NCBI GenBank assembly: GCA_021824175.1
Contig: JAKALP010000001.1
Location: forward strand, 310,001 to 374,000
DNA length: 64,000 nucleotides
Origin: Deltaproteobacteria bacterium
Lineage (GTDB): Bacteria > Desulfobacterota > Desulfobacteria > Desulfobacterales > Desulfosarcinaceae
Reading direction: 5' to 3'
Shown: positions 13,006-15,922 of the stretch, piece after piece
Numbering within the stretch: position 1 is the stretch's first letter
Layout: each line of letters starts with the position of its first letter
The notes under the pieces: generated by a model
Databases searched by the model: none
What the model was told of the DNA's origin: nothing
What the model saw: the letters and a program-made list of their open reading frames with translations, nothing else
Made by a program: the position numbers and the translations under genes

Positions 13006-13317
13006 TCATTGGCCGACCGGCGGGCTGGACGATTCCGTACGGATATAGGTGCCGGCCTGCTTCAGCCAGACTTCCATTTGTTCTACTGTCACCAGTGAGG
13101 GATCATAGACCACGCGGTTGACTTCACTGAAGCGCAGCCAACCTTTGGTGATCGAAATAATGCCGGGCCGCCCATCCAAGGCAGCATGCCCGACATCATA
13201 TCAGGAGACGACAAAAGTTACTTCCGCGCCTATCGGTCTTGCGTCTGCGGCGGCTCCATTGACAAGGGCCAAGGCCGCGCACAGCAACATAACGAAGATC
13301 ATCCAATTTCTATTCAT
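13006..13317 (-). CDS. Candidate selenoprotein: secreted HMA/MerP-like protein with in-frame UGA (Sec39)
   Basis: The frame starts at an ATG with a GAGGTGA ribosome-binding site and meets TGA at 13203-13201 (codon 39), but continues in the same frame for 64 coherent codons to a TGA at 13006. If UGA is read as selenocysteine the product is 103 residues: a signal peptide (about 1-24, ending NGAAADA), then a ferredoxin-like HMA pattern: EVTFVVS-U-YDVGHAALDGRPGI, ITKGWLRF, VNRVVYDPSLVTVEQMEVWL, KQAGTYI. The UGA aligns with the second Cys of the HMA CxxC, seven residues before the ALxxxPGI helix end. A stem-loop right after the UGA (13196-13160) fits a bacterial SECIS. A nonsense-mutated pseudogene is the main alternative. 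It lies downstream of a DM13 gene. Confidence 0.7.
13160..13196 (-). promoter_or_regulatory. SECIS-like stem-loop following in-frame UGA
   Basis: On the transcript, 4 bases after the UGA, AUGUCGGG pairs with CCCGGCAU (8 bp with one G-U pair). A 4-base bulge leads to an inner stem CUGCC/GGCGG capped by the 7-base loop UUGGAUG, about 21 bases after the UGA. The distance and the two-stem shape match bacterial SelB-binding SECIS elements. Confidence 0.6.
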
Positions 13318-13363
13318 AATTTCACCTCTACATCGGGAAGTGAGCTCCATGGTCAGGATGCAC

Positions 13364-13406
13364 CCCATGTCATACCCAGGCATGCGGGTATGACATGGGC
13401 TTTTTT
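13364..13406. repeat. REP-like perfect palindrome between DM13 and selenoprotein genes
   Basis: Perfect 14-bp arms, CCCATGTCATACCC (13364-13377) and GGGTATGACATGGG (13386-13399), with an 8-base loop, then T6 on the plus strand. Both neighbours are on the minus strand, so it is not a canonical terminator for them. Its form resembles dispersed GTCATACCCGC-type palindromes. Confidence 0.6.
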
Positions 13407-13436: not shown

Positions 13437-13964
13437 TTACATCTTGTGGTCCAGTTTGGCGCGTCCGATCTCAACTTTGAATTTCTTACAATAGATAATG
13501 ACGCTGTCGTAGTCTTCGGGGTTGGTCATAGCCGGCAGGGCGAAGTAAACGGTCCCAGTGAATTGCTTCAGGACGCCCAGATCGATGCCTTGGGTGCGGT
13601 CGCCATGTTTGGCCAGATAAACATGACCATCGGGCACCTTCTCCACGTCGATGTCGGTGAGCACTAACTGCTCCTTGCCCATCTCTTTGGTGAAAGAAAC
13701 CTTGCCGGCGGCCATGTGTCCTTCTGACCCGGCCAACATGACCGCCATGGGTGCGGCCGGTGTTGTTTCCATCATCTTCTCGTTTTTCATTATCTTATCT
13801 TTGGTCATTTCCTCTTTCATTTCTCCGCCTTGCATCTCCGGGGAGGCCATCTTTGTATCCTGCATCTTTCCCTCTTTCATATCCGCAATGCCGGCACTCG
13901 AAAGTAAAGTTGCGTTTAGCAACAAAGCCATTGTCGCCAGGTAAACCAAATTCGTCATCTTCAT
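13437..13964 (-). CDS. Secreted DM13-domain protein
   Basis: A 175-residue protein with a signal peptide (about 1-27), a Met/Lys/Glu-rich low-complexity segment (about 29-67) and a C-terminal DM13 domain (about 80-175). The domain shows the expected order LVLTDIDVEKVPDGHVYL, IDLGVLKQFTGTVYFALP and SVIIYCKKFKVEIGRAKL, with the conserved Cys that has been proposed to take part in redox or electron transfer. The Met-rich stretch could bind soft metals such as copper, which is inference. An AAGAAGG ribosome-binding site precedes the ATG. The two-component genes lie upstream and the candidate selenoprotein gene downstream on the same strand, hinting at a redox- or metal-responsive unit. Confidence 0.85.
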   Translation of the reverse strand: MKMTNLVYLATMALLLNATLLSSAGIADMKEGKMQDTKMASPEMQGGEMKEEMTKDKIMKNEKMMETTPAAPMAVMLAGSEGHMAAGKVSFTKEMGKEQLVLTDIDVEKVPDGHVYLAKHGDRTQGIDLGVLKQFTGTVYFALPAMTNPEDYDSVIIYCKKFKVEIGRAKLDHKM

Positions 13965-14138: not shown

Positions 14139-15218
14139 CTAAGCCACTGATGGCAGAGGTAAGGCAAACCAGACACACGTTTCACCGGGTTTGCTTTCAG
14201 CCCCGACCCGGCCGCCGTGGGCCTCGATGAGTTCTTTGACGATGGAGAGCCCGATGCCGGCGCCGCCGGCGTTGCGGGAACGGGAAGGATCGGCGCGATA
14301 GAAGCGTTCGAAGATATAGGGCAGATGCTCCGGCGCGATGCCGGGGCCGCTGTTAGTAAAACGCGCTGTAACGGCGCTGTCTCCGCGTTCAATGGCGATT
14401 TCGAACCAGCCTTGTGGGGAAGTATACTTCCAGGCATTTTCGATGAGATTGCGCAGGGCTTGCAGCAGTTTGTCCGGATCGGCCGCCACCTGATCGGCTT
14501 CCGGGTTGAAGCGGGTTTTGACAGTAATTTGCTTGGCGTCCAGATGAGATTGATAGAGAGGCAGCATTTGTCGGATCAAAGCTTGAAGTGAAACGGGCTC
14601 CTTCTTGAGATAGGCCCGGGCCGCCTCCGCTTTGGCCAATTGGTGTAAATCTTCCACCAGGTGGACCAAGCGAAGTACTTCTTGTTGCAGCATATGGAAT
14701 GTCTCCTTGGTCGGCGGCACCACCTCGTCGCTCAAGCCTTCCAGGTACCCGCGCAAATTGGTCAGGGGCGTGCGCAACTCGTGGGCCACGTCGGAGACCA
14801 TGCTTTTGCGCAACCGCTCCAGCCGTTCCAAGCTGTCGGCCATGCGGTTAAAGGCCACACCCAGGCGGCCGACCTCATCCGAGGAGGTGATCACCACCCG
14901 TTCCCCAAAATTGCCGGCTGCTACCTGGCGGGTGATAGTGGCCATTTGAGAAAGCGGGCGCAGCACCCGACGCGTGAGCAAATAGCTGAGCAGCAGCGCC
15001 AGGGCCAATCCGGCCAAGGTGGCCCACAATAAATAGCGGTGGACGGCGGTGAGAAACATTTGGTGGGTTTCGGTGGGAGAGATATCGTACTTGGTCATCA
15101 AGGTCATGAAGTAATCGGCGGCCAGTTGATTGATGGCCAGCCACACCATCAGCACAATGACGGCAATGACCGGTACCACATTGATCAGCAGCAATTTCCA
15201 GAGCAGGCGTTGTTTCAT
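14139..15218 (-). CDS. Two-component sensor histidine kinase (BaeS-like)
   Basis: A 359-residue membrane kinase. Two transmembrane helices (about 9-31 and 61-83) flank a very short periplasmic segment of about 30 residues. HAMP follows (about 84-135), then the H box SDVAHELRTPLTNLRGYL with the phosphorylated His, the N box NLIENAWKYT, and the G boxes SGPGIAPEHLPYIFERFYR and GGAGIGLSIVKELIEAHGG. The short periplasmic loop suggests sensing within or at the membrane, sometimes through a partner. The start overlaps the response-regulator stop by 4 bp, so the pair is cotranscribed. Confidence 0.93.
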   Translation of the reverse strand: MKQRLLWKLLLINVVPVIAVIVLMVWLAINQLAADYFMTLMTKYDISPTETHQMFLTAVHRYLLWATLAGLALALLLSYLLTRRVLRPLSQMATITRQVAAGNFGERVVITSSDEVGRLGVAFNRMADSLERLERLRKSMVSDVAHELRTPLTNLRGYLEGLSDEVVPPTKETFHMLQQEVLRLVHLVEDLHQLAKAEAARAYLKKEPVSLQALIRQMLPLYQSHLDAKQITVKTRFNPEADQVAADPDKLLQALRNLIENAWKYTSPQGWFEIAIERGDSAVTARFTNSGPGIAPEHLPYIFERFYRADPSRSRNAGGAGIGLSIVKELIEAHGGRVGAESKPGETCVWFALPLPSVA

Positions 15219-15922
15219 GATTCGGTTTTCTCCGCCAGACGATACCCAAACCCCCTGACAGTCAGGATATATTTCGGCCTGGCGGGATCGGCTTCAATCT
15301 TTTGTCTAAGCTTGCCGATGTGCACATCGATGACGCGGTCCACTACGATTTCGCCATGGTCGTAGAACTCATGCAAAAGCACTTCACGCGAGAAGACGCG
15401 CCCCGGCGAACGCATTAAGGCGCGCAGCAGTTTGTACTCCGATACGGTCAGTGTGACCGCATGGCCGCCCACCGTAACGGTATGCTTCTCCAGATCCATC
15501 TCGATTTCGCCATGGGACAGCCGTTGCATATCCTGCTTGGGCGTGGGCCTGGCCCGTCGCAGGATGGCCTTGACCCGTTCCACCAGCTCCCGGGGGCTGA
15601 AGGGCTTGACCACATAATCATCGGCGCCCAGGGTTAGCCCCAGCACACGGTCAATCTCTTCTTCTCGCGCCGTGAGCATCAGGATGGGCACATCGGAGCG
15701 GTTGCGCAACTGTTTGCAGATCTCCCAACCATCCACCTTGGGCAGCATGACATCCAGGATAACCAATAGTGGAGGTGTTTGTTGGGCGCGTTTCAACGCT
15801 TCCCGGCCGTCATGGGCCATGACGGTAGAAAAACCTTCGCGCTGCAGATAAGTGGCCACCAAGGAAGCGGTGTTGGGGTCATCTTCCACGATCAGAATGG
15901 GGTCGGTGTATTGTGCGCGCAT
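15215..15922 (-). CDS. OmpR-family response regulator
   Basis: A 235-residue regulator: receiver domain (about 8-122) with acidic pocket EDD, phosphoacceptor in [15 protein letters not shown], Thr in LMLTARE and Lys in [13 protein letters not shown], then a winged-helix DNA-binding domain (about 137-231) with [19 protein letters not shown] and [12 protein letters not shown]. It is the upstream partner of the BaeS-like kinase. Possible targets include the DM13 and candidate selenoprotein genes downstream, but no operator was identified. Confidence 0.94.

Follow-up and report, generated by a model that had tools for sequence, protein, structure and literature searches.

The UGA-interrupted gene and its surroundings

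The window (the whole stretch of DNA analysed, 64,000 nucleotides from a Desulfosarcinaceae genome) holds a short minus-strand gene with an in-frame UGA, last in the order regulator, kinase, DM13 protein, candidate selenoprotein. The features are as follows.

13006..13317, minus strand: candidate selenoprotein gene, 103 codons and a stop, selenocysteine (Sec) at codon 39; from the reading frame and homologs
13201..13203, minus strand: in-frame UGA, codon 39; TGA at this column in 49 of 52 distinct loci
13160..13196, minus strand: SECIS-like two-step hairpin, columns 8–44 of alignment A3; from folding, pairing statistics and SECIS rules
13167..13185, minus strand: apical stem-loop with loop UGGAU at 13174–13178; strongest RNAalifold support
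13322..13329, minus strand: ribosome-binding site AGAGGTGA, by reading
13240..13317, minus strand: putative signal peptide, residues 1–26; by eye, with an ADA cleavage site
13437..13964, minus strand: protein with a DM13 domain (PF10517, E 1.5e-12), a Met-rich stretch and, by eye, a signal peptide; upstream, same direction
14139..15218, minus strand: HAMP sensor histidine kinase; same cluster near 24 of 52 loci, either strand
15215..15922, minus strand: OmpR-type response regulator; same cluster near 22 of 52 loci, either strand

The frame opens with the ATG at 13317, four bases downstream of the ribosome-binding site, passes through the TGA at 13203–13201 and runs for 64 more codons to a normal stop at 13008–13006, as the original prediction had read it. 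An N-terminal signal peptide is plausible, both by eye and from a helix at residues 4–20 in the AlphaFold model, and the protein is probably secreted. The only Cys besides the codon-39 column lies inside the putative signal peptide.

Conservation of the UGA codon across homologs

A search with the full protein against 40 genomes, its own included, found a homolog in 7 further genomes, at 39–47% identity, and in all of these the frame contains one TGA and no more. A scan of the named genome contigs gave no relative with the single protein and 18 loci with an alignment of eight rows, with titles mostly naming Desulfobacterota and one SAR324; the viral contigs searched held no relative. Searches of the phylum (395 genomes) and the order (389 genomes), which overlap in genomes such as the window's own, gave matches at E up to 1e-5 in 16 and 45 genomes. 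Below 1e-15, nine of the ten rows from the phylum carry one TGA and the tenth none; 44 of the 45 rows from the order carry one TGA and the other a TGA and a TAA.

Sequences were read at 58 loci (the window, 17 named loci and 40 fetched regions), which reduce to 52 distinct loci after removal of 6 duplicates. Outside this set stand the order-search rows of G642, G483 (two), G731 (TGA and TAA), G710, G581 (two), G680 (TAG), G624 and G562 and the second copies in G552, G534, G542 and G510, together with the phylum-search rows of G439, G320, G360, G143, G114 and G358. Five genomes (G490, G510, G534, G542 and G552) hold two family copies at E below 1e-15; both copies were read for G490 only, and this genome contributes 2 of the 49 TGA loci.

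The original prediction looked to homologs for Sec or Cys at the UGA column, and to an unrelated residue there as the sign against it. The codon is TGA in 49 of the 52 distinct loci and TGT (Cys) in two (L023 and L032), leaving a single locus, L150, with AGC (Ser). L150 is a weaker match with no in-frame stop, and its Ser form may have lost function. In the stretch that begins eight residues ahead of the column and takes in the rest of the match, a single Sec or Cys is present at 51 loci, and neither at the locus with Ser. Around it, F35, V37, Sec39, Y40, D41, V42, G43, L47, G52 and a Glu at position 65 are invariant or nearly so; the Glu is kept in all 52 loci, in three of them after a four-residue insertion. 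By their taxonomic labels the carriers span several families. A tree built on few columns, of which we use only this one grouping, places the window with L024 (Sec), L023 (Cys) and L032 (Cys, on a long branch) with support of 98/94, so Sec and Cys interchange within the window's own small branch.

That the TGA reflects a chance frame, a pseudogene or a sequencing error has nothing in its favour apart from the TGA itself and is vanishingly improbable: the same codon recurs in 49 of 52 loci from many families, two homologs have Cys at the column, and the frame is open and conserved on both sides. The homologs rule out a pseudogene or a sequencing error.

A SECIS-like hairpin follows the UGA

The two-step hairpin described in the original prediction, with an apical loop about 21 nt after the TGA, is present, and its loop starts 22 nt after the UGA. 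In the window it folds at −26.9 kcal/mol (z = −4.0), a stability reached by none of 200 shuffles. The bSECIS rules, as worded in the available text of PMC13188914, ask for a loop of 3–9 nt, a stem of 4–16 bp, a G in the first two loop positions, a spacing of 16–37 nt and an energy of at most −7.5 kcal/mol. Coded here for an ungapped stem and the energy of that stem alone, they are passed by the window (5-nt loop, 7 bp, spacing 22, −10.9 kcal/mol), by 37 of the 49 UGA genes, by a mean of 9.8% of synonymous shuffles and by none of the three non-UGA homologs. Among the failures, eight keep the stem-loop in too weak a form (L033, L034, L039, L143, L146, L161, L164 and L173), and in four it is not seen (L026, L159, L166 and L172). 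The proposed check with SECIS models was borne out by the coded rules and not by Rfam, a search of which with the window stretch at E up to 10 gave no SECIS and no other match.

Codon choice and base pairing point the same way. The sequence GCC-CTG-GAR-GGG after the UGA is common to most UGA genes, with GGG at codon 49 in 44 of 49. The codon for Gly49, itself within the hairpin, is GGG in 16 of 17 UGA genes, compared with 18 of the 120 other Gly codons of these genes (p = 1e-10). Laid over these 17 genes, the two-step hairpin has 84.5% of its cells paired, against 31–46% when slid along the alignment; its proportion of paired cells was reached by 1 of 500 shuffles, and its further pair types and covariation score by none. 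Pairs changed on both sides number only three, a count reached by 52 of the 500. RNAalifold supports the apical stem and draws the lower stem differently and short; we are less certain of this lower stem, of which pair 14–38 is unpaired in 11 of the 17 genes, than of the apical stem. For an average gene, 12% of the synonymous shuffles equal the real hairpin in folding, so the signal is clear across the set and less so for any one gene.

Selenocysteine machinery and a second UCA-anticodon tRNA

All four components named in the original prediction (selA, selB, selC and selD) are present in the window's genome: SelA (620 bits), SelB (379 bits) and SelD score over their cut-offs, alongside a canonical tRNA-Sec of 73 bits. 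SelD is found twice over cut-off (G000:C22:180507 and C51:42445), each time with an in-frame TGA. Across the 19 genomes searched, tRNA-Sec exceeds the Rfam cut-off in 14 of the 17 with the UGA form (all except G026, G048 and G051); of the two with the Cys form, G050 has a tRNA-Sec and none was seen in G045. The window's genome also encodes an exported-looking MsrA selenoprotein with the motif GUFWG (G000 contig C49:27152-27577; L071:2952-3545), and MsrA matches with one in-frame TGA occur in 14 of 30 family genomes, one of them a fragment.

A second tRNA with a UCA anticodon, scoring 52 bits as tRNA-Sec, lies on contig C22 of the window's genome (G000 contig C22:173696-173781; L002, L070:4807-9262). 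It comes after what looks by eye like a Cys-type formate dehydrogenase. Behind it are a second SelB, matched at 295 bits across the first 380 residues, a CysRS-like gene that scores 456 bits, and a double-cubane reductase. The set resembles the selC*/selB*/cysS* system, with its selC* tRNA-Cys, that the available text of PMC7609411 describes in Desulfobacterales, although the first pair of the tRNA is G–C here and A1:U72 in the selC* tRNA-Cys described there.

These two systems offer two readings of codon 39. If the noncanonical tRNA, second SelB and CysRS-like gene acted on it, the UGA would be read as Cys and the mature protein here would be a Cys protein. The likeness to the described set (PMC7609411, as far as its available text goes) speaks for this, but no genome among the 19 searched, apart from the window's own, showed a second UCA tRNA, by a typing that covered only matches that became loci and that a GCA-type tRNA would escape; canonical tRNA-Sec and SelB are present in that genome too, and 14 of the 17 UGA-form genomes have tRNA-Sec over cut-off. 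We regard decoding as Cys as improbable. Because the UGA interrupts a single conserved protein, with a conserved SECIS-like hairpin behind it, and occurs in a genome that encodes Sec machinery, it is very probably read as Sec, and the window protein is almost certainly a selenoprotein. The original prediction of a hidden, secreted selenoprotein with an HMA-like fold is supported by codon conservation, Sec/Cys replacement, the hairpin and the machinery.

A predicted ferredoxin-like domain between HMA and MsrA

AlphaFold, run with 19 family members, predicts a ferredoxin-like beta-alpha-beta-beta-alpha-beta core with mean pLDDT of 96–98 for residues 31–90 and 82 for residues 91–100. HMA domains rank first in structure comparison (MerP 1osd, Z 9.7, rmsd 1.9, 66 aligned), in keeping with the HMA-like domain that had been proposed. 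Foldseek gave no match at E ≤ 0.001; among its weaker matches HMA domains come first, with MsrA behind them (2j89 at rank 45, rmsd 1.8). Sec39 is separated by 13 residues from a conserved Gly, the spacing between the second Cys of CxxC and Gly in MerP; this agrees with the predicted placement of the TGA at the second Cys. In the matched region of the 52 loci, CxxC itself is absent, with Sec or Cys at its second position only and, at the first, Tyr in 37, Val in 4, Phe in 4, His in 3, other residues in 4 and Cys in none.

Profile comparisons extend the likeness to MsrA. With hhalign, the family aligns to MsrA with a probability of 96.7 (E 3.5e-10, 61 columns) and its Sec column falls on the catalytic Cys, whereas the alignment to HMA (probability 93.6, E 2e-7, 43 columns) leaves the Sec column out; MsrA against HMA gives 51. 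These scores are not a calibrated contest, because the MsrA profile was made from neighbouring MsrAB genes and one Sec-MsrA and the HMA profile from P-type ATPases. Direct BLASTP against MsrA gave nothing significant, so the MsrA link rests on the profile comparison and on gene neighbourhood. Other models lean towards HMA: a PDB profile search places ATP7B (1.3e-4) and MerP (0.006) above MsrA (0.14), and in NCBIfam the MerP model weakly matches 5 of 8 members (best E 3.4e-4) and the CopZ model 6 (best E 9e-4). In Pfam, HMA (PF00403) leaves the window protein unmatched and reaches 2 of 8 members (best E 0.11), and PMSR (PF01625) likewise gives no significant match (2 of 8, best E 0.087). By the alignment, Glu65 is presumably the counterpart of the catalytic Glu of MsrA; a Glu at that place is also common in HMA domains.

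Methionine sulfoxide reductases and two-component genes nearby

An MsrA or MsrAB cluster lies near 20 of the 52 loci on either strand, and the neighbouring MsrAB look exported by eye. Within four genes upstream or three downstream, and on the same strand only, MsrA(B) occurs at 19 of the 52 loci, the kinase at 20, the regulator at 19, and signalling together with MsrA at 12. Thirty loci have at least one of kinase, regulator, MsrA, molybdopterin oxidoreductase or spondin-domain protein on the same strand; 22 have none, a few of these through contig ends. These are raw counts that ignore kinship and are inflated by relatedness. As a yardstick, 30 family genomes contain 46 msrA matches, about 1.5 each with fragments included; the window's genome has two MsrA genes, both on contigs other than the window's. 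MsrAB is also downstream at L024, where masking kept it out of the count, and on L040, the contig that carries the remainder of the L023 gene, two regulator/kinase-cluster ORFs lie just upstream.

The molybdopterin oxidoreductase is directly upstream at 6 loci; 5 of the 6 were scanned and match SorA, SoxC and MsrP models under the cut-offs, and the four given to Pfam pass PF00174. Metal genes are rare by a search with the HMA profile and one P-type ATPase motif: the profile is matched by 1 of 520 neighbouring ORFs, and DKTGT occurs in 2 of 520. At L170, the gene directly downstream of the selenoprotein gene encodes a YHS-domain member of NF041384, a (seleno)protein family (L170:7253-7540, 88.6 bits against a cut-off of 70), and MsrAB comes next.

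In the window, the kinase and regulator best match models such as BaeS and MtrA/CreB/BaeR, below their cut-offs, which suggests an envelope-stress-like two-component pair. The DM13 protein, encoded where relatives often have MsrAB, has a long Met-, Lys- and Glu-rich stretch before its domain and is a possible oxidant or metal sponge. BLASTP clustering found no ORF similar to this DM13 protein at the other 51 loci. Between the DM13 and selenoprotein genes is a 14-pair inverted repeat at 13364–13399 with a T-run on the plus strand, the core pattern of which occurs once in the window.

A single selenol with a proposed role in envelope repair

The predicted mature protein consists of one ferredoxin-like domain; it lacks a second Cys, and its Sec stands where helix 1 begins. 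A lone selenol of low pKa at a helix start could be a strong nucleophile acting alone, and Sec39 could form a one-selenol redox centre in the periplasm. Because a protein with no second Cys can make neither an internal bond nor a metal site of the common two-Cys type, it is more likely that the one selenol goes through a redox cycle with an external partner, and the Msr neighbours suggest a partner or substrate in envelope methionine sulfoxide repair. In the mechanism that we propose, the selenoprotein would be controlled by an OmpR-type two-component system and work alongside MsrAB or related secreted enzymes; the selenol may itself reduce oxidised sulfur (a sulfoxide or sulfenic acid) or may relay electrons to reductases, and would be regenerated by an envelope thiol system. 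We favour such a role in methionine sulfoxide or oxidant repair, as relay or mini-reductase, over metal binding, with reasonable rather than high confidence. Against it count the 22 of 52 loci with none of the five same-strand neighbours; the window locus itself, which has the DM13 gene and not msrAB; the terminator-like hairpin between DM13 and the gene, though its T-run is on the other strand; and the first rank of HMA in structure comparison, with single-model matches that favour MerP and CopZ over MsrA.

The first of the two branches of this mechanism would make the protein a minimal sulfoxide reductase, a cut-down MsrA for a small or specific sulfoxide with Sec39 and Glu65 as catalytic pair. 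The Sec column on the MsrA catalytic Cys, the Glu kept throughout the family, the msr neighbours and the precedent of the genome's own secreted-looking GUFWG enzyme argue for it; the missing Phe-Trp of the MsrA pocket and missing C-terminal part, the frequency of Glu at that place in HMA domains and the poor Pfam PMSR matches argue against, and we hold this version to be possible but doubtful. We give a similarly tentative standing to the most specific form of the relay branch, in which the domain would work specifically for the secreted MsrAB of strict anaerobes, as electron carrier or co-reductase, and would give the repair of envelope methionine a branch based on selenium and independent of thioredoxin. 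A title in the reference list of PMC13188914, according to which a selenoprotein glutaredoxin reduces a selenoprotein MsrA, gives a precedent for a selenol donor to Msr.

The original prediction left the choice between a selenol that binds a soft metal and one that does redox chemistry. As a periplasmic chaperone or scavenger of HMA fold, the protein would bind Hg, Cu or Ag through its single selenolate, perhaps as a dimer or with a partner ligand. The HMA domains as best structural matches, the weak MerP and CopZ matches, the PDB profile ranking and the HMA profile match are all consistent with this, and even the Msr neighbours are compatible: in E. coli, by the available text of PMC9302797, copper induces MsrPQ through CusSR and MsrPQ repairs the copper chaperone CusF, so Msr genes and metal handling can coexist. 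Yet the first CxxC ligand is missing, no locus has a second Cys in the matched mature domain, the HMA profile alignment omits the Sec column, and few metal genes are nearby. We consider metal binding rather unlikely; binding after the manner of HMA and MerP is not supported, Pfam HMA also failing to match the window protein. Redox chemistry, to which the Msr neighbours point, is the half of the original alternative that fared better.

Comparison with known selenoprotein families

The family would add an unlisted and widely spread selenoprotein to those catalogued, one whose gene a standard caller would cut off after residue 38. Because Cys forms are rare (2 of 52 loci), predictors that lean on Cys homologs may miss it; the deep-Sep authors, in the available text of PMC12013277, state this reliance as a limitation of their own method. 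If the reading of the neighbourhood is true, the family would link selenium with the repair of envelope methionine among sulfate reducers and related bacteria, an unlisted part of the anaerobes' defence against oxidation that Msr adjacency suggests.

The small exported family appears to be absent from the catalogues checked, namely NCBIfam and the table of PMC13188914. No NCBIfam model (June 2026) scores above cut-off for the window protein. Among the 8 of the 52 loci scanned (for the other 7, E-values only), 15 families matched below the cut-off or without cut-off information, the best being NF041383 (2e-10) and NF041115 (1.4e-9). The 2026 table of PMC13188914 lists 119 families, none of which fits by name, domain or motif as far as its descriptions set them apart. 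The nine deep-Sep families include three hypothetical proteins, by the available text of PMC12013277; their models (NF049953, NF041197 and NF049942) are not among the 15. A search of open-access texts for a selenoprotein with a heavy metal-associated domain returned no paper, though an earlier mention elsewhere is possible.

The closest listed families differ in motif and extent. NF041383, the VPGUxxT thioredoxin-like (seleno)protein type 2 (OS_HP5), is the best NCBIfam match and reaches all 8 members; 72 residues of the window protein cover positions 131–202 of 287, three relatives fall within 134–204, and the window protein scores 31.9 bits against a cut-off of 275. The VPGU motif listed for that family (PMC13188914, table) is absent here, and the protein is too short for the rest of the model. 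NF041115, an HMA-like UxxU metal-binding (seleno)protein, matches 7 of the 8 members, the window protein being the exception, and has a cut-off of 95 bits. According to the table of PMC13188914 it has two Sec in UxxU, whereas all 49 UGA members have one Sec in the matched part, with the first ligand absent and no UxxU. No NF041383 or NF041115 member over cut-off was found in 30 genomes searched. The putative mercuric transport selenoprotein of the same table (C/SxxU) likewise has Sec at the second position of a CxxC-type motif, but is listed there as a PF02411 transporter, whereas here the Sec is in a soluble exported domain with no PF02411 match.

Beyond the listed selenoproteins, the nearest relatives are two folds. 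HMA domains (PF00403), MerP and CopZ have the same predicted fold and their second Cys where Sec is, but their CxxC is absent here. MsrA selenoproteins (PF01625) share, by profile alignment, both the core and the position of Sec within it, but the GCFWG active site is replaced by xUYDVG, with Tyr-Asp in place of the Phe-Trp after the catalytic Cys, and the C-terminal half of MsrA is absent. From the predicted model and the profile alignment, we read the three as one fold class in which Sec would occupy the position of both the HMA second Cys and the MsrA catalytic Cys, and this common position makes a possible relationship of the HMA and MsrA folds testable.
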